From contig PLMX01000160.1 in NCBI GenBank assembly GCA_003142635.1, positions 13,739 through 60,588 of the forward strand: DNA of 46,850 nucleotides. Direction: 5' to 3'. Positions 12,318-31,092 of the stretch are shown here, one piece after another (position 1 is the first letter of the stretch; the number at the start of each line of letters is the position of its first letter). Below the pieces are notes generated by a model. The model worked only from the letters and a program-made list of their open reading frames with translations, had not been told where the DNA came from and ran no database searches. The stretch comes from Syntrophaceae bacterium. Its GTDB lineage: Bacteria > Desulfobacterota > Syntrophia > Syntrophales > UBA2185. Position numbers and translations under genes: made by a program.

Positions 12318-12950
12318 TCAGGTTTTCAAATTGATAATCTCTCGTAATACAAGTTTGCCGTCGTCTGAAAAAACAAATATTGAGGCGGAATCGTAAGTGT
12401 GTTGTATGGAGATGTCCTTGGTTATGACTTTATGTCTGGTGATGGAAAAAGGATCGCCGTCTCTGAAATTTTGTGGGACTCCCTTGGACAGATCAGTTTG
12501 GGGATCAGCGAGCCAGCGTTCCGCCCCCGTTCCATCCGATTTCAGAATGAGGAAGATGTATCCCGACGCCGGGGCATTCTTCGAGGTCTTGTTTTTCAGA
12601 AGAAACGAATAGCGAAATAATTTTCTTGAAAGGTCGAAGTTGGCTTCGAAATTTTCTATAGACAAGTTGTAAGATTGTGTAACGGCGATTACCGGTTCCG
12701 CATCGGCTGATACGGCGCTCTTTGCTGCATCCGGAGATTTACTGTGAGTTCCAATATTAGACGTGAGCTCTTCTTTAAAACCTCCCATCCGGTTGTGGAG
12801 GAGAACTGCGGCAAAAGAGATAACACACAGGCCAATGACTGTTACCAGGCAGACCGTTAATAAGTTCATCGGAAGCTTAAAGGAACACAGTCGCCTCTCG
12901 TCCTGAATTACAATGATGGTGAACTTCTTTTGTCTCTTGTCTGAGTGCAT
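12318..12950 (-). CDS. Single-pass membrane protein, M23-peptidase N-terminus-like, no peptidase domain
   Basis: A 210-residue protein of uncertain family. Residues 9-27 (KFTIIVIQDERRLCSFKLP) look like the short cytoplasmic segment that opens many bactofilin-associated M23 peptidases, and a membrane helix follows (about 28-50). The periplasmic part has no HxxxD or HxH zinc motif of M23 and instead holds a small beta-rich domain (SLLKNKTSK-type strands, SGYIFLILKSDG, ITKDISIQHTYDSASIFVFS). It is upstream of, and surely co-transcribed with, the bactofilin. I infer a membrane anchor or adaptor for the bactofilin. The resemblance at the N-terminus is by eye only. Confidence 0.55.
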   Translation of the reverse strand: MHSDKRQKKFTIIVIQDERRLCSFKLPMNLLTVCLVTVIGLCVISFAAVLLHNRMGGFKEELTSNIGTHSKSPDAAKSAVSADAEPVIAVTQSYNLSIENFEANFDLSRKLFRYSFLLKNKTSKNAPASGYIFLILKSDGTGAERWLADPQTDLSKGVPQNFRDGDPFSITRHKVITKDISIQHTYDSASIFVFSDDGKLVLREIINLKT

Positions 12951-13149: not shown

Positions 13150-13335
13150 GGCAAAATACTGATGTGGACCATTTGCGACTAAAATCCTTTCGTAATTCTG
13201 CATTACTAAGATGGGAGAATCTCATGAGCCTGCCACCGTAAAGAAGCAAGAAAAATCATTGATTACGACTGTGAAATCCTGTATGAGCAAACTGATGGGG
13301 ATTTTCCCTGGAGGTAATTGGGAAAAGGAACAAAG

Positions 13336-14508
13336 ATGAAAAGATTAGTCAACTTCAGTGGCACAAAATTTTGTTTGTCTATTATTCTTCTCGTGTTTTT
13401 CTTTATGGGTGCCGCCGTCGAAAATATGGACACCTCCGGCCAGTCTTCGTGGTTTGTCGCTACTGTGCTTGCCCAGTCTCGTCCGAGTGAGGTCGGGGCT
13501 CCCAAAGAAGAGACCAAGGTTCAAGCTGCGCAGGAAAGCACTCTCATGCATAATTTACTGGAAAAGCAGAAAGAATTTGACAGTCGGGAAAAGGCGTTAA
13601 AAGAGGAAGAACTGAAGGTCGAGGCCTTAAAAAAGGATGTAGCGGAAAAAATGGAGGCCCTCAGGGTTCTTGAGGAAAGAATGTCGCCGACGATGGAAAG
13701 TCAAAAAGGCGAGAGGGACAAAAGATATCAGTCGTTGGCAAGAATATACGAAGTCGCTCCTCCTGAAAAAGCGGCGGCCATATTCGAAAAAATGGATAGA
13801 AAAATGGCGGCTGAAATCATGATGCGCATGAACAGCAAGAAAGCCGGCGCCATCTGGGCGCATATAAATCATGAAACTGGCGTACAGATTGCGAGAGAGA
13901 TTACCTCCTCACAGAGTGTGGATACCGCTAAAGCGACAAAAATTGCTAAAGAAATCGCTGGAGCCGAAGCGGTTAAAGAAGCGGCCGTGCAAAGCCCTGA
14001 TGCCGGTGCCGTAACGCCTCCAGGAGAAATCAAGGGAGCGGAAGGGCCCAAGCCAGAGACTCAGCAGAGTCCCGCTACTGCCGGTTCGCCGGGAACTACC
14101 AAAGAAATTGCTGCGGAGAAAGTAATCAAACCGCAGCCTTCGCAAAAAGAAGGGGCAAAGACACCCGCTAAGCGCGAAATAAAAGTGGCCAAATCGAAGA
14201 AGGCAAGGTTAAAGAACTTCCGGTCCCAAGCGTTGAAGCCGTTTGCCATACAGATCAAGGCTGTTCGCGGCAGCGAGATGGCTGCCGAGTTTACGAAGAT
14301 GCTCAGAGACGAAGGCGTTGATGCCTACTGGTCTGAAATGAGCGCGAAAGACGGCGGAACTTTATACAGAATTCTTGTCGGTCATTTTACAAGCCGCGAA
14401 GAAGCGCTGACTTACATGAAAAAGAAACGTATCGACATTAATTATCCCGGCAGTTATATTCAGAAGACCGAACAGGTAATTCCCCCCAAAAAGGAAAAGA
14501 AACAGTAA
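13336..14508 (+). CDS. Exported protein with MotE/MgtE-N-like domain fused to a SPOR domain
   Basis: ATG 13336 is chosen because AAAGGA (13324-13329) is well spaced; an in-frame TTG at 13318 also has a GGAGG. The 390 residues show: an N-terminal signal or anchor (10-28); a charged coiled coil (about 65-120); a helical domain (about 128-188: SLARIYEVAPPEKAAAIFEK, MNSKKAGAIW) of the MotE/MgtE-N type; an alanine/proline/lysine-rich linker; and a C-terminal SPOR domain (about 300-375: KPFAIQIKAVRGSEMAAEF, TLYRILVGHFTSREEAL). SPOR domains bind denuded glycan at division sites. The helical domain is about half identical, by hand alignment, to the MotE-like gene after fliJ. The joint architecture suggests a link between flagellar or stator machinery and peptidoglycan; this is inference. 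Confidence 0.75.
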   Translation: MKRLVNFSGTKFCLSIILLVFFFMGAAVENMDTSGQSSWFVATVLAQSRPSEVGAPKEETKVQAAQESTLMHNLLEKQKEFDSREKALKEEELKVEALKKDVAEKMEALRVLEERMSPTMESQKGERDKRYQSLARIYEVAPPEKAAAIFEKMDRKMAAEIMMRMNSKKAGAIWAHINHETGVQIAREITSSQSVDTAKATKIAKEIAGAEAVKEAAVQSPDAGAVTPPGEIKGAEGPKPETQQSPATAGSPGTTKEIAAEKVIKPQPSQKEGAKTPAKREIKVAKSKKARLKNFRSQALKPFAIQIKAVRGSEMAAEFTKMLRDEGVDAYWSEMSAKDGGTLYRILVGHFTSREEALTYMKKKRIDINYPGSYIQKTEQVIPPKKEKKQ

Positions 14509-14527
14509 CGACAGTGCATGAGCAAGT

Positions 14528-14550
14528 GAAATCGGCTGTGCCGGGATTTC
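14528..14550 (+). terminator. Possible hairpin terminator after the MotE-SPOR gene
   Basis: GAAATC-GGC (14528-14536) can pair with GCC-GATTTC (14540-14542 and 14545-14550) with a two-base GG bulge, followed by AATATTT rather than a clear T run. It lies in the 222-base gap between two convergent genes. Confidence 0.4.
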
Positions 14551-14730
14551 AATATTTGCCACCCGCCTATCATTTCCGACACTTCAATTGAACCCCGTAA
14601 ATGTTTCTGCAGTTTTGAACGTCATGTGACGGCTGCCGCAGGGTTAAGATACAGCCGGAGGCCTGGCTTCTTCCGGGTGTATGGGGGGATACATTAAGAG
14701 TGCAAGAGGGATTTACTCTTGACAGACTGG

Positions 14731-16305
14731 TTACACAACATGCCCGGTATCAGTCATGATTCCGCGGGGCGAGATGGTTGATCCCCGACGAAGAGTGCTA
14801 ATGAAGTAGTTCACGATTTCCTCGTCAAATTGACGATTAACATTTCTTTTCAACTCGGCGACCGCTGTTTCTACGTCCATTGCTTTTCGGTACGGTCGGT
14901 TGTTGGTCATGGCGTCAAATGCATCCGCAACGGCCAGCATCCTCGAAAAAAGAGGAATATTGGTGCCATGCAGGCCATCAGGATAACCATTACCGTCCCA
15001 CCGTTCATGGTGATGGCGGATTATTAATCTTTCCGTATCCAGGATGGGAAGTGGCTTCAAGATATTTTCTCCAATCACGGGGTGGTTCTTTATAACATCG
15101 AATTCGTAAGTAGTGAGTCGGCCGGGTTTAAGCAGGATGTCGTCAGGTATGGAAATTTTTCCTATGTCATGAAGAGTTGCCGCTATCTTCAGCGATTCGA
15201 TTTCACTCGGGGAGCAACTCATTGCTTCTGCCGTTCTTATAACAATATCCGTTACCCTCATGGAGTGCTCTTCCGTGTAATAATCGCGGGCTTGAATGGA
15301 AGCAACGAGCGATTGAAAGGTACTCAAGAGATTCGTGTACAGACTTTCGTACAGAAGCCTATTCTCGATATTGAGAGACGCCCTGTTGGCGATACTCTGG
15401 ATATAATAAAGATCTCTTTCCGTGTAGACATGTTCGTTGCTTTTTCCGGAAAGAACTATGATGCCGAAGACCTGGTCCCTGATTTTCAAGGGCGAACAGA
15501 TGACAGAAGAATATGCCGTGTTCTTGATGAGATTTCGCAGCAAAGGTTCCTTTCTGCGGACGGTGTCTCTGAGTATGGTATGTAAGGAGGGTATGATTAC
15601 GCTTTTGAAAAAAGTCTGTGATACTCCTTTGACGGCAACAGCATCAAATTCCTGATGATCCTTATCGTACAAGAGTATAGAACATGCTTCGCCGCCGACG
15701 ACCTTCAGAGCAAGATCAACCATTTCCTGAAAGATTTCGTCATTGTTTTTCGTGAGCTCGATCTTGTCATATATATAACTGCGCGTAGATAAGTCGCTTA
15801 TCTTGGTAGTTAGGGAAGTGGCCGTCGTCTGCTTGTCGTATTCACCGAGAATTGTCTTTGCCCGTAAATAGACATCAACCTTATATAAGAGATCATCAAT
15901 ATTGAACGGCTTTGCCAGGAAGTCTACCGCGCCCGTCTTCATCGCGGAAACGGTCAGTCCGATGGTCGGGTAGGCCGTAATAAGAATCACGTGCGTCGTC
16001 GGTTTGATTTCCCTGATCTTGTCGAGGAGATCCATGCCGTTCATGCCGGGCATCATGACATCGCATATGACCATATCAAAATGGGTTTCTCCCAGCCTTT
16101 CCAGGCCTTCAACGCCGTCTGACGCCTCGGTAACTGCATAGGCGCCAGTCTGAGATATGGCATCTACGACAAGCGATCTGGTGCCGATGTCGTCATCGAC
16201 TACGAGAATGGATTTTCTTTCTGAACTTACTTCATTCGTACTTAACATATGCGCTCTATCATGGGCATTGTCCGCGGAAAAAGGTAAATGATCCCGCTCA
16301 GTCAT
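14731..16305 (-). CDS. Response regulator with receiver, GAF and HD-GYP domains (c-di-GMP phosphodiesterase)
   Basis: A 524-residue cytoplasmic regulator. The receiver (about 30-150) keeps the acidic pocket (VVDDD), the phosphoacceptor D82 (CDVMMPGMNG) and the KPF lysine. A GAF-type sensor lies at about 180-315. The HD-GYP domain (about 340-510) has HD at 379-380 (LHDIGK) and HHHERWDGNGYPDG at 431-444, the residues expected of an active cyclic-di-GMP phosphodiesterase. It overlaps the upstream small flagellar gene by 8 bases and shares its sigma-28 promoter. Lowering c-di-GMP late in flagellar assembly would favour motility; that role is inferred from the promoter and position. Confidence 0.9.
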   Translation of the reverse strand: MTERDHLPFSADNAHDRAHMLSTNEVSSERKSILVVDDDIGTRSLVVDAISQTGAYAVTEASDGVEGLERLGETHFDMVICDVMMPGMNGMDLLDKIREIKPTTHVILITAYPTIGLTVSAMKTGAVDFLAKPFNIDDLLYKVDVYLRAKTILGEYDKQTTATSLTTKISDLSTRSYIYDKIELTKNNDEIFQEMVDLALKVVGGEACSILLYDKDHQEFDAVAVKGVSQTFFKSVIIPSLHTILRDTVRRKEPLLRNLIKNTAYSSVICSPLKIRDQVFGIIVLSGKSNEHVYTERDLYYIQSIANRASLNIENRLLYESLYTNLLSTFQSLVASIQARDYYTEEHSMRVTDIVIRTAEAMSCSPSEIESLKIAATLHDIGKISIPDDILLKPGRLTTYEFDVIKNHPVIGENILKPLPILDTERLIIRHHHERWDGNGYPDGLHGTNIPLFSRMLAVADAFDAMTNNRPYRKAMDVETAVAELKRNVNRQFDEEIVNYFISTLRRGSTISPRGIMTDTGHVV

Positions 16306-16580: not shown

Positions 16581-16745
16581 ACTCTTCTTTGGGTCGGTGT
16601 ACGAATATTAGAAAATCTCAATCATAAATGGCTATTATATTAATATTCTATTTGACTATTGTTCAATTTTTGTTAACATTGTGCGTCGCGATGTCCAGAT
16701 GTGTCTTATATCGTCTCAACCGAGGATCTTCTTGAAGAATCTATT

Positions 16746-18125
16746 ATGAAGAATGCAAAGATATTGATTGCTGAGGACAATGAACTAAGCAGGGAGAACC
16801 TGTCCGAGCTTCTGAAAAGTCATGGCTGTGAGGTCACGGCTGTCGAAGACGGCAGGCAAGCCAGGGATGCCTTTATCGAAGATAAATACGACCTCGTGAT
16901 AACTGATTTGAAGATGCCGAATATGGACGGTCTTCAGCTCCTGGAGTTCATCCAGGAAATCAGTCCGGAGAATATCGTAATTATAATTACCGGCCACGGC
17001 ACTATCAATACGGCCGTAGCGGCGATAAAGCTTGGCGCTTTTGACTATATCACCAAACCACTAAAAGATGATCTTGTGACACTGACGATTGAAAGGGCGT
17101 TATCCTACGCAAAACTAAGGCAGGAAAATATATCCCTCAAGAGAAGTTTGAAAAAGCGATATGATTTCGCCAACATGATCGGCTACAGCGATGGGATGAA
17201 AAAGATCTTTGATACGATTGAAAAAGTTGCTACTTCAGATAGTACGGTCATGATCTACGGCGAAAGCGGCACAGGCAAAGAATTAGTTGCCAAGGCCGTA
17301 CATTTCAACAGTGAAAGAATAAATTTTCCGCTTGTTGCCGTAAACTGCGGCGCCATTCCCGAAGAGCTGCTGGAAAGTGAGTTATTCGGCCATGAGAAAG
17401 GCGCCTTTACGGGCGCACTACGCACCAGGATCGGCAGATTTGAATTAGCCAATGGCGGGACGATATTTCTGGATGAGATCGGTGATATGAGTCCTGCACT
17501 GCAGGTGAAGGTGTTAAGAGTGCTTCAGGAGAAGCAATTTGAGCGCATCGGAGGAGTGAAGACGCTGCAGGTTGATGTAAGAATTATCGCCGCAACCAAC
17601 CAGGATTTGGAAAAGGCGATAGAGGAAAAAAGATTTCGGGAAGATCTGTTTTACCGTATAAATGTTATACCTATAGATCTGCCGCCTCTGAGGGAAAGAA
17701 AGGTTGACATCCCGATCTTGGCTAACCACTTCCTGTCGAAATTCAACAAACTAAAGAGAAAGGGCGTGGTTCGGATCACCCCGGAAGCGATGGAGTATCT
17801 GCTTAAGTATTCTTGGCCTGGAAATGTCAGAGAACTCGAAAATTTAATCGAGATGATCGTTGTCCTAAAAGAGGAAGGTGAAATAGAGGTTCAGGACCTT
17901 CCGGAAAAAATAGGAATGGCGCACTCCCATGGCGTTGTCAAGAGCGGTGTAGAAATAACGGATGAAGGGATCAATTATAATGCCTACGTTGATCAGCTTG
18001 AAAAGGATTTGCTTTCGAGAGCCCTGGAAAAGGCCGGAGGAGCAAAAAACAAGGCTGCAAAATTACTGAACTTAAATAGAACAACTTTTGTTGAGAAATT
18101 GAAGAGGTTCAAAATTGGTCAGTAG
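16746..18125 (+). CDS. Sigma-54 dependent response regulator, NtrC class (FlrA/FleQ-position)
   Basis: ATG 16746 places the receiver at residue 4, as is usual (MKNAKILIAEDN); an in-frame GTG at 16701 is less likely as no ribosome site is seen. The 459 residues comprise a receiver with phosphoacceptor D54 (VITDLKMPNMDG), an AAA+ domain with Walker A GESGTGKE (172-179) and the sigma-54-contacting GAFTGA (219-224), and a Fis-type helix-turn-helix (NKAAKLLNLNRTTFVEKLK). No histidine kinase adjoins it. It stands upstream of the TPR-flrB-flrC unit, whose sigma-54 promoter it could activate as FlrA does in Vibrio. Unlike FlrA/FleQ, its receiver keeps the phosphorylation site. Confidence 0.9.
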   Translation: MKNAKILIAEDNELSRENLSELLKSHGCEVTAVEDGRQARDAFIEDKYDLVITDLKMPNMDGLQLLEFIQEISPENIVIIITGHGTINTAVAAIKLGAFDYITKPLKDDLVTLTIERALSYAKLRQENISLKRSLKKRYDFANMIGYSDGMKKIFDTIEKVATSDSTVMIYGESGTGKELVAKAVHFNSERINFPLVAVNCGAIPEELLESELFGHEKGAFTGALRTRIGRFELANGGTIFLDEIGDMSPALQVKVLRVLQEKQFERIGGVKTLQVDVRIIAATNQDLEKAIEEKRFREDLFYRINVIPIDLPPLRERKVDIPILANHFLSKFNKLKRKGVVRITPEAMEYLLKYSWPGNVRELENLIEMIVVLKEEGEIEVQDLPEKIGMAHSHGVVKSGVEITDEGINYNAYVDQLEKDLLSRALEKAGGAKNKAAKLLNLNRTTFVEKLKRFKIGQ

Positions 18126-18411: not shown

Positions 18412-18758
18412 TTACAATGTGCGCCTCACGATCCGGTCAAAAAATTGGCCGGCATGGTGACTATTTGACGTAAGTTATGCTCAGACGGTGGCATCATGTG
18501 GCAGGAAACATCCTTAAGCTTCCGTTTATTAAGAGAAAAGCTCTTCCGCAAATGGATGGTATATAAATTGCTCAGGAAATTAGACTGAACTAACTCTCAG
18601 AGGATATTTCTACGCAGTACGGAAACATCTCCGAAAGGTGAAAGCGGAAAAAGCCCGGTTGCAAATGCCTTCGAACCCCCGTTATCCGGAGATGAAAACT
18701 AACGAGAGAATTGAATTGCGGGAGTCTCTGGCTCTCGACACATTTGATGTTTAGAAGA
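18126..18758. other. 633-base intergenic region before the TPR-flrBC unit
   Basis: Contains the start-less minus-strand frame in its first half and a sigma-54 promoter at 18557-18572. The leader from the predicted start to the TPR gene is about 175 bases, and no known riboswitch or small RNA was recognised in it. Confidence 0.5.
18557..18572 (+). promoter_or_regulatory. Sigma-54 promoter of the TPR-flrB-flrC unit
   Basis: TGGTATATAAATTGCT has the invariant GG (18558-18559) and GC (18570-18571) separated by exactly 10 bases, with TTGCT at -12. It shares TGGTATAT with the flgB and fliL sites. The predicted start is near 18583. Confidence 0.75.
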
Positions 18759-20927
18759 ATGAAGAAATTCATAATCTCATCTGCCCTGATACTAATGCTC
18801 ATAATCCAGCTCAGCGGCTCGACTCACGGCAGCAACGGCGACGAGCAAGGTCAGGGAACAGGCCAGCCGAATGCAGTGACAACAGCCAGTCATAGCGCAG
18901 CATCCAACAATTCTCTTTATGACCAGGCCATGGGAGACTTTCAACGGGGAGGATATACCGAAGCGCTGGAAAAGTTCAAAGCTGTCTTACAGCAGGAGTC
19001 CGGAGAATCCTCCCAAAAGGAAAGTGCTATGAGATCCATGGCGGAATGCCATTATTTCCTCGGAATAAAGGGGAATAAGAATAGTCTCTTGAATGCGGTC
19101 GATCTTTACAAAAACATTGTACAGAAGTACCCCGATTCCCGCGATGACAATGCCATTGCCTTATACAGAGCAGCAAACGCCTATGCTGCCCTGGATTTCT
19201 ATTATGAAGCGAAGCGGGAATTTGAAAATCTATACGCAAAGTATCCTGATTCTCATTACGTTCCGGAGATTACGTTCAGGATCGGTGAAATGCTTTACAA
19301 AGCGAGAAAATTTAGCGAGAGCGCTCAGAAGTATGAGGAGTATGTCCGCAAGTTCCCGGCGGGGGAATACATTAAGACGGCTTACTTTAATCTCGGTGAT
19401 TGCTACTCGCAAGTGCATCAGGAGGAAATTGCCGATAAATGGTACAGCGATGCCTTGAAGAAGTGGCCTGAATTGGAAAGCATCCCCGACGATGTCCTTT
19501 TAAACGTGGGGTTTCATTTCTTTCGGAGCATGAAATATCGCGATGCACTGAAGATATTTTTCTTCTATGTCAACGTATTCCCGGAGAAGGAGAGCAAAAA
19601 GGAAGTTCTTTTTGCCATTGCCCGTTCCTTTATGGAACTCGATCAGCTTCCCCTTTCACTCAAGATTTTCAGTCTTTTGATAGAAAAATATCCGAACAGT
19701 CGTGAAGCAATGGAAAGTGCAATTCTCATGGCCAATCTTGGTGCAAAGAAGCCGGGGATGAAATTGCCGGCATATTTTCAGGGAATGCGGAATTATCAGG
19801 ACCCGCTTAAGACTTATAACGACCTCTTGGCCGGACAGTCTTCGGGCGATTATCTGGAGGAGCTGCTCTTTCAAAAAGGTTACTTCCTGTATAAGAATGG
19901 CAGACATAGGGAGAGCTTTGATACATATGCTCTCTTACTCTCTCGTTTTCCCAATGGAAGGTACAAGGGAGAGGTCACTAAGTATTTCATGATATCCGCC
20001 GACCGGATCGTGGACGAGAATTATACGGTCGGAGATCATCTGGCAGTTTCAGAGATATACTTTAAATCTCGAGACCACGGTCTCGTCACAGGAGATAATT
20101 TCAAAGCTGCATACTGTATGGGTGACAGTCTCAGACGGGTTGGCCTCTATGATGAGGCAGCCGAAGTCTTTGAGAAACTCCTGAAGACCTCCGGAAGTGT
20201 TGACGATAGAAACAAGATATTGATTGCTATCGCTGATATCGACTGTGAGAGACGGAATTACGATAATGTCGAAAAGATACTCCAGCGGTTGTCAGTGGCT
20301 CCGCCGAAAAAAGACCGAAGCTCAACCAGGAATCGCCGCCAAGTAAAATCTCAGGGCAAAGCGATGGTCCAACATTCATCGCCGGACGGGCATATACAGT
20401 TACACGTAAACAGAATCTTGGGGAACGTTTACTTTAAAAAAGGCCTGTTTGACAAGGCCGCAGCTTCTTATGCCAGGGTATTGGCTCATGGAGAAGGCAT
20501 TGAAGGCATGGCCGAGGTCTACCTGAAGAATGCCGACTGCCTGAAGGCAATAAATTCTCTGGAAGCGTCTATGGCCAGTTATCGCAAGGCTATCGAAGTC
20601 TACAGCAAGGAAAGCAAGAAATACCCCGTTGATGTTCTGATTGCTTCATACAGGGGTCTTGGCGATTGCCTGTTTGAGAAAAAGGAATACCAGGAGGCCA
20701 TATCCATGTACAGGCAATCGGCGTCATATCTTGGCGGACGCGCCGAAGGCTTATGGTCGCTCTATGGGATAGGGAAGGGGTACACAGGTTTAAAGAATTC
20801 TGAGATGGCGGACAAGACTTTCTCAGAATTGAAGAATAAGGGTGGTGAAGGTTTCTGGTCTAATCTCGCTGATTATGCACTGAGGGAATACAGCTGGAAT
20901 GAGAAGTATGATGCTAATAATCCGTAG
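18759..20927 (+). CDS. Large exported TPR-repeat protein, linked to flagellar regulation
   Basis: A protein of about 720 residues. The start is uncertain: ATG 18759 gives a classical signal peptide (MKKFIISSALILMLIIQLSG), ATG 18747 adds four residues, and none has a strong ribosome site. After the signal and a short linker come many TPR/Sel1-like units (LYDQAMGDFQRGGYTEALEK, FYEAKREFENLYAKYPDSHY, IYLKNADCLK-type repeats) through to the C-terminus. It resembles the periplasmic tetratricopeptide scaffolds that assemble motor structures, but no specific family was recognised. It lies behind a sigma-54 promoter and 32 bases before flrB, so it is transcribed with flagellar regulators. Confidence 0.75.
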   Translation: MKKFIISSALILMLIIQLSGSTHGSNGDEQGQGTGQPNAVTTASHSAASNNSLYDQAMGDFQRGGYTEALEKFKAVLQQESGESSQKESAMRSMAECHYFLGIKGNKNSLLNAVDLYKNIVQKYPDSRDDNAIALYRAANAYAALDFYYEAKREFENLYAKYPDSHYVPEITFRIGEMLYKARKFSESAQKYEEYVRKFPAGEYIKTAYFNLGDCYSQVHQEEIADKWYSDALKKWPELESIPDDVLLNVGFHFFRSMKYRDALKIFFFYVNVFPEKESKKEVLFAIARSFMELDQLPLSLKIFSLLIEKYPNSREAMESAILMANLGAKKPGMKLPAYFQGMRNYQDPLKTYNDLLAGQSSGDYLEELLFQKGYFLYKNGRHRESFDTYALLLSRFPNGRYKGEVTKYFMISADRIVDENYTVGDHLAVSEIYFKSRDHGLVTGDNFKAAYCMGDSLRRVGLYDEAAEVFEKLLKTSGSVDDRNKILIAIADIDCERRNYDNVEKILQRLSVAPPKKDRSSTRNRRQVKSQGKAMVQHSSPDGHIQLHVNRILGNVYFKKGLFDKAAASYARVLAHGEGIEGMAEVYLKNADCLKAINSLEASMASYRKAIEVYSKESKKYPVDVLIASYRGLGDCLFEKKEYQEAISMYRQSASYLGGRAEGLWSLYGIGKGYTGLKNSEMADKTFSELKNKGGEGFWSNLADYALREYSWNEKYDANNP

Positions 20928-30070: not shown

Positions 30071-30514
30071 ATGTTTCAATTCGATCTGGAGGTGGTATTA
30101 AACTTTAGGTTACAAGTTGAGGAGCAGTGTCAGCTCTCATTGGCCGAAGCGGTGAAGAGGCTGCAGGTCGCTATGGATATCTTGAAAGGTTTGCAAAAGA
30201 AAAAAGATGATCTGATCAGGCATTTTGAAAGAATGCAGGAAAATACCCTGACTTCAGACGTCATAGCGCGCCACTTTATCTTTATTGAGTTTTTGAAATC
30301 CAAAGAAGAAAAGCAGAAGGCTATCATAACAAATATGCAGGAGGAAGTGAGTGCCAAGAGGCAGGACCTCCTGGAGGCCGTTAAAAAAAGGAAGGCGATG
30401 GACGTCCTCCGGGAGAAGAAAAATGCGGCATATGTTTCCGAGATGGCGGCTAAAGCCCGTAAGGAACTAGATGATTTTGCACTAATCAAATTTGGCAACG
30501 GTATGAGAAAATGA
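30071..30514 (+). CDS. fliJ: FliJ, flagellar export chaperone
   Basis: FliJ is a coiled-coil protein that sits in the FliI ring like the gamma subunit of F1. The 147-residue protein is almost entirely a two-helix antiparallel coiled coil rich in K, E and Q, starting with FDLEVVLNFRLQVEEQCQLS, the typical FliJ opening. It starts 11 bases after fliI and its stop overlaps the next ATG (ATGA). Assignment rests on size, coil and position. Confidence 0.88.
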   Translation: MFQFDLEVVLNFRLQVEEQCQLSLAEAVKRLQVAMDILKGLQKKKDDLIRHFERMQENTLTSDVIARHFIFIEFLKSKEEKQKAIITNMQEEVSAKRQDLLEAVKKRKAMDVLREKKNAAYVSEMAAKARKELDDFALIKFGNGMRK

Positions 30515-31092
30515 AAAAGGCAGTTATCGCTATTGAAATTCTTCTTGTGCTTCTCTTTATGGCAAAGATTCTTGCCATAGGCGAAATTGTGAAGAGGTCG
30601 GAAATTTCCAACTATCTGTTATGGCCAGTCACGTCTGCACTCGCTGATTCGTCGCCGCAAACAAGTGTTGATTCTCCATCAAGAGACGTTTCTATAGATA
30701 CATTGGCTTCAGAAAGAAGTTTTATGTCCACCTTGGCAGATAGGGGGAGGCAATTAGAAAACAGGGAACATGGTGTGAAATTTGAGGAAAAGAAGATCAA
30801 TTTACTGAGGAACGAGATTGTAGCAAGAATAGAAGTGATCCGGGGTCGGGAAGAGAAAATGGCGTCTCCTCAGCAATCTGCTGGATTTGAAGATAACACA
30901 AGATTCAAAGAATTGGCCAAGGCGTACGAAGCGACTCCTCCAGATAAGGTCGGCGCTCTATTAAACAAAATGGATAGCAAAACGGCAGCGGGGATTATCA
31001 TGCAGATGAATGTCAAGAAAGCCGGTGCCGTATGGGGACAACTCAACCCTGAGAAGGCTGTGGAGATCACCAAAGCCATCGCCGGCATATAA
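30511..31092 (+). CDS. MotE-like periplasmic flagellar protein (MgtE-N-like domain)
   Basis: A 193-residue protein with an N-terminal membrane helix (about 5-23), a coiled coil (about 70-115) and a C-terminal helical domain (about 130-190: FKELAKAYEATPPDKVGALL, MNVKKAGAVWGQLNPEKA) of the MgtE-N/MotE type. MotE in rhizobia acts as a chaperone for MotC, and genes of this type often follow fliJ (YlxF in Bacillus). It overlaps fliJ by 4 bases and ends the first operon. A paralogue with an added SPOR domain is at 13336-14508. Confidence 0.82.
   Translation: MKKAVIAIEILLVLLFMAKILAIGEIVKRSEISNYLLWPVTSALADSSPQTSVDSPSRDVSIDTLASERSFMSTLADRGRQLENREHGVKFEEKKINLLRNEIVARIEVIRGREEKMASPQQSAGFEDNTRFKELAKAYEATPPDKVGALLNKMDSKTAAGIIMQMNVKKAGAVWGQLNPEKAVEITKAIAGI

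Follow-up and report, generated by a model that had tools for sequence, protein, structure and literature searches.

The window analyzed here, a stretch of 46,850 nucleotides from a Syntrophaceae bacterium related to Syntrophus (contig PLMX01000160.1), contains a gene on the plus strand (13336–14508) coding for a protein of 390 amino acids, in which an E-ring protein of the flagellum is fused to a C-terminal SPOR domain. MotE, FlgY, FlbB, and YlxF form one family (COG3334), the flagellar E-ring protein, whose genes are usually located between fliJ and fliK (PMC13023049). Since intact copies of the fusion gene were found only together with FliG and FlhA, and the gene is deleted or broken in relatives without them, it is very probably dedicated to the flagellum. 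The chances seem about even that it encodes a second E-ring protein of the MotE/FlgY/FlbB family, which arose by duplication of motE and capture of a SPOR domain and which would tether the base of the motor to the cell wall.

The reading frame of the fusion gene is open throughout, and an alternative in-frame TTG start at position 13318 would add six amino acids. The order of the parts was derived from the translation, Pfam matches, an AlphaFold2 model and the orthologues. A hydrophobic helix at the N-terminus (approximately residues 12–33, 13369–13434; helix 2–33 in the model) is predicted to act as an inner-membrane anchor or uncleaved signal anchor. It is followed by a long helix or coiled coil of 80 residues (residues 60–140, 13513–13755), which corresponds to the “spoke” of E-ring proteins, and by the four-helix ARM-like/MgtE_N head of MotE and FlgY (residues 143–208, 13762–13959). 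The linker (residues 209–297, 13960–14226) is of low complexity, rich in proline, alanine, lysine, and glutamate, and is predicted to be disordered, with a predicted local distance difference test score (pLDDT) mostly below 50; its composition and relaxed rate of substitution are consistent with this. The SPOR domain (residues 301–378, 14236–14469) is predicted to adopt an RNP-like fold (beta-alpha-beta-beta-alpha-beta) at residues 303–377 of the model. The pLDDT is approximately 90 in head and SPOR domain, and the model of the canonical MotE of the same window shows anchor, spoke, and head as in the fusion protein.

The SPOR profile of Pfam (PF05036) matches residues 301–374 with 37.5 bits (E 3.1e-9; cut-off 21), and the domain was also found above the gathering cut-off in the orthologues of genomes G146 and G055 and in a fusion from another class (G223, see below). 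The MgtE_N profile matches residues 135–192 (E 7.6e-6) and narrowly passes its cut-off of 25.9 with 26.8 bits. The NCBIfam model of the FlbB collar (NF047368) gives 35.2 bits (E 1e-8), which is below the curated cut-off of 110; judged by this profile, the protein is a relative of FlbB and not a FlbB equivalog. Structural matches to the head comprise the middle domain of FliG (Z 9.1), MgtE (Z 8.5), and the YlxF chain from an integrative FliF-YlxF model. The C-terminus matches the SPOR domain of RlpA with a Z-score of 9.3 and a root mean square deviation of 2.4–2.5 Å, and in one of the two RlpA entries the domain is bound to denuded glycan. Two residues, Q306 and R345, are invariant among the fusion orthologues and align with Q270 and R309, which contact the glycan in RlpA. 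Other positions of the RlpA domain are not kept (R311 is replaced by L347 and F274 by V310). Sequence searches of the PDB returned chance or coiled-coil matches only, and the Foldseek E-values are weak by themselves (best 6e-3), so that the fold assignment is based on Z-scores, Pfam and knowledge of the family jointly. Thus, the architecture proposed in an earlier note on this DNA, with membrane anchor, coiled coil, helical domain, and C-terminal SPOR domain, is borne out by Pfam and AlphaFold2, including the MotE-like fold and the match to the SPOR profile.

The canonical MotE, a paralogue without SPOR domain, is encoded between fliJ and fliK (30511–31092, plus strand). In a BLASTP comparison the two proteins share 36% identity over 181 amino acids (E 2e-36), spanning anchor, coiled coil, and head. 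Given this extent of the homology, the fusion protein can be regarded as a full-length MotE paralogue with a C-terminal addition. In the head, 29 of 62 residues are identical (residues 131–192), in good agreement with the hand count of about 30 of 60 in the earlier note, and the paralogy claimed there extends beyond the head. The MotE proteins of Syntrophia, as seen in the canonical MotE of the window and in the MotE alignment, also carry a nearly invariant A-x-A motif (A43, A45) about 18 residues past the hydrophobic helix, which is unusually distant for a signal-peptidase site.

In a phylogenetic tree all five fusions form a single clade (support 100/100), with the family's canonical MotEs as the nearest group (81/70). 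Because of this placement, an origin by duplication of motE inside this lineage is likely, albeit not proven. The SPOR domain of the fusion is of a type that occurs in other Syntrophales membrane proteins with the motif YPGS[FY], and these proteins are likely donors of the captured domain, judging from sequence similarity. Two proteins with related SPOR domains were observed: a membrane SPOR protein joined to a DnaJ domain (L048:2034–3068, genome G038) and one in the window's own genome (L005:1480–2262), which is encoded beside a gene that by eye resembles DnaJ/helix-turn-helix genes. Both resemble the fusion closely in their SPOR domain, with the C-terminal YPGS[FY] or a related sequence, but are without a MotE head. 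Where estimable between divergent pairs, the ratio of nonsynonymous to synonymous substitution rates (dN/dS) is approximately 0.05–0.16 for head and SPOR domain, with anchor and linker being looser, which indicates purifying selection on both domains.

Among 155 genomes of the class Syntrophia, a MotE-like protein was found in approximately 60 and the fusion in five only, all belonging to the family of the window's genome. The fusion orthologues represent at least three genera with 51–58% identity, and the named relatives are the Syntrophaceae metagenome-assembled genomes (MAGs) PMBI01000083.1, DNUI01000284.1, and JAFNGM010000113.1. Flagellar status was assigned by the presence of FliG_C and FlhA in the family sample of nine genomes, mostly MAGs. 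Both were found in five of them (G000, G027, G055, G146, and G136), and no FliG_C or FlhA was found in G105, G118, G030, and G046. An intact fusion gene accompanies a canonical motE in G000, G027, G055, and G146, whose flagellar cluster is the one native to the family; the four genomes without FliG and FlhA have no intact copy. Genome G136 has FliG and FlhA and lacks the fusion. Its MotE is excluded from the MotE group of the family by the approximately unbiased (AU) test (p 0.0024), and its FliJ shares 63% identity with the FliJ of another family, which suggests that its flagellar cluster (L028, G136:C451) was exchanged or acquired horizontally.

In G105 and G118, which belong to the genus of the window's genome, the alignment with the window breaks off near 13380 and continues from approximately 14720. 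The junction is identical in both, and 1.34 kb are gone (13381–14719), leaving the upstream region and approximately 15 codons of the fusion gene as a scar, while the neighboring genes for an S41 protease, a bactofilin, a membrane protein, and an HD-GYP protein are retained. The flagellar cluster of G118 was removed by a separate deletion, which starts within the gene of a sigma-54 regulator; a leftover 5′ part of this gene (L103:11164–11419, corresponding to 16615–16870 of the window) marks it. In G046, a congener of G146 with its intact copy, the fusion is a pseudogene, which has lost its 5′ end and carries an 18-bp deletion and a 1-bp frameshift. By sequence comparison, the gene was lost or decayed twice independently, both times in a lineage that lacks FliG and FlhA. 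The four genomes without these two proteins are 90–99% complete, which makes their absence good, if not perfect, evidence of flagellar loss. A flagellar role, as suggested in the earlier note, is supported by this pattern.

Outside the class Syntrophia, a further fusion was identified in G223, a genome of another class of the phylum. Directly after fliI and fliJ, it encodes a MotE protein of 321 amino acids with a C-terminal SPOR domain (L082:1694–2659; E 9.5e-13), which is the sole MotE detected in this genome. In the tree, its head and those of the Syntrophia fusions are widely separated. A common clade was weakly rejected (AU p 0.047, long branch), so that a single origin of both is weakly disfavoured. 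This suggests that a SPOR domain was joined to an E-ring protein more than once, and once within the flagellar operon itself. Further candidates were discarded. The SPOR-only matches in Syntrophia (G038, G120, G071, and G044) have no MotE head and are not hidden fusions, one of them containing a DnaJ domain. Long-frame MotEs elsewhere in the phylum were N-terminally extended or ordinary, with a SPOR domain in G223 only, among the matches listed; as this survey scored four candidates per genome, further fusions may exist.

The favored model assigns the parts of the protein to known positions of the E-ring, which in the FlbB model is thought to be non-rotating and bearing-like (PMC11750108). The coiled coil would dimerize with itself or with the canonical MotE to form a spoke. 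Following the FlbB model, the spoke would end with the N-terminal helix in the inner membrane, and the ARM-like head would be packed at the hub around the MS-ring, next to FliF. From the hub, the flexible linker (approximately 45–90 residues) would let the SPOR domain reach the peptidoglycan and bind glycan strands without stem peptides near the opening for the rod. As a result, a non-rotating bearing of the E-ring or a stator scaffold would be fixed to the wall. Enzymes with an Amidase_3 domain are encoded in all genomes of the family, with two in the window's genome, and could make the denuded glycan that serves as ligand. Tethering to remodelled wall is plausible, given that the protein has preserved the SPOR fold as well as Q306 and R345, the key residues for glycan contact. 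AMIN domains, which bind peptidoglycan, occur on the E-ring partners PflA and MotK (PMC13023049, PMC11870540), and a link to the wall at the E-ring therefore has precedent. Wall tethering at the E-ring by the fusion protein is about as likely as not.

The main argument against this model comes from FlbB, in which a GFP tag at the C-terminus blocks ring formation (PMC11750108); the long linker may avoid such a block, or the fusion protein may build only part of the ring. A canonical MotE is present in every genome of the family with an intact fusion, and the fusion protein may therefore sit elsewhere than in the E-ring. Its gene lies outside any flagellar operon, and the number of sigma-54 sites in the window (19) is close to the 19.8 expected by chance, so that no site above chance was found. 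Regarding the distribution, only two loss events are clearly independent, and some of the genomes are incomplete MAGs.

The gene order bactofilin, membrane protein, fusion, and HD-GYP is conserved across genera, losses apart, and the flagellar cluster begins within a few kilobases of the locus. The fusion gene is located 2.2 kb upstream of the sigma-54 regulator gene that precedes this cluster and approximately 16 kb upstream of fliJ. It thus lacks the adjacency to fliJ and fliK that is usual, but not universal, in the MotE family and that was found for the canonical MotE (30511–31092) and for the G223 fusion. A plasmid search gave no match. Upstream of the bactofilin, and divergent from the fusion gene, a membrane protein is encoded on the minus strand (12318–12950) for which no Pfam or NCBIfam match was found. 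It is not linked to the flagellum, because it is kept in all nine genomes of the family. A conserved promoter-like block (TTGACA-17-TATGAA, minus strand) was observed upstream of its gene. On the other side lies a convergent gene for a response regulator-GAF-HD-GYP protein (14731–16305, minus strand), which stays where the fusion gene is deleted. Further downstream, a TPR protein of 738 amino acids is encoded on the plus strand (18711–20927). Its full-length copies are 60–98% identical and confined to the four genomes with an intact fusion. From this distribution, it may be the PflA/MotC-like E-ring partner of this lineage.

The meaning suggested in the earlier note for the bactofilin neighbourhood is not supported. 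The bactofilin unit is divergent from the fusion gene, excluding co-transcription, and stays in G105 and G118, where the fusion gene is deleted; the link is only positional, and a partnership of the two was rejected. For the same reason, it is improbable that the fusion is a non-flagellar envelope or division protein, which works with the bactofilin unit and has merely borrowed its MotE-like head. The gene adjoins the bactofilin, and the SPOR proteins described up to 2019 serve division or morphogenesis (PMC6895207), but relatives in which the fusion is deleted or broken still have the bactofilin and the adjoining membrane protein, and intact copies occur only alongside flagella. Still less credible is that duplication and domain shuffling left behind a gene without function: the narrow distribution in one family would fit, but the purifying selection on both domains and the conservation across genera argue against it.

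The main rival, which we consider rather unlikely though the strongest of the alternatives, is placement at the septum or new pole. Here, the SPOR domain would bring the protein to the denuded peptidoglycan of the septum at division, and the head would recruit FliF or the E-ring, so that the next flagellum forms at the new pole. SPOR domains are classic marks of septal peptidoglycan (PMC6895207), and genes for FlhF-like and FlhG/MinD-like proteins, which are typical of polar flagellation, are present in the window. This explanation would also account for a gene apart from the flagellar operons and for the coexistence with a canonical MotE. In G223, however, the SPOR domain is on the only detected MotE and is encoded in a flagellar operon, which is a better fit to a structural part. 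Less probable again is a flagellar role other than in the E-ring, namely as a periplasmic partner or chaperone of a TPR scaffold or of the stator, held near the wall by its SPOR domain, comparable to the first description of MotE for MotC. MotE stabilizes MotC in Sinorhizobium (PMC13023049), and the exact co-occurrence of the fusion with the full-length TPR gene would agree with such a partner. In contrast, the complete coiled coil and head needed for the ring are retained, and that MotE acts solely as a chaperone is itself in doubt (PMC13023049).

With the E-ring reading retained as the favored one, the protein can be compared to three known groups. It shares with MotE, FlgY, FlbB, and YlxF the N-terminal anchor, the long coiled coil and the four-helix ARM-like/MgtE_N head, and a canonical paralogue is present in the same cluster, but it is a second copy encoded outside the flagellar operon and continues past the head with a disordered linker (about 90 residues) and the SPOR domain at its C-terminus. 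Inner-membrane SPOR proteins of the FtsN, DedD, and DamX type also have an anchor, a disordered linker and a C-terminal SPOR domain with conserved glutamine and arginine, whereas the fusion is associated with the flagellum and not with the divisome, and an E-ring head separates its anchor from its linker. PflA and MotK (AMIN-TPR) as well as MotY and MotB (OmpA-like) are likewise proposed to connect the motor periphery with the peptidoglycan. Their wall-binding domains are unrelated, and in the fusion this domain is on the E-ring protein itself. Among the papers searched, none was found that ties a SPOR domain to the flagellar E-ring.

Tentatively, and with somewhat less confidence than for the tethering itself, the E-ring of these bacteria may be anchored to the wall via a SPOR domain that senses how the peptidoglycan has been processed, so that assembly or stator engagement would depend on denuded glycan made by amidases, and this may have evolved at least twice, in the Syntrophia family and in G223. 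The E-ring is ancient and widespread, and an E-ring protein with its own peptidoglycan-binding module, which is lost with the flagella, offers a direct handle on the job of the ring and on its anchorage. The fusion predicts a ring that is held in place by the wall, and the presence of denuded glycan in the wall beside the motor.
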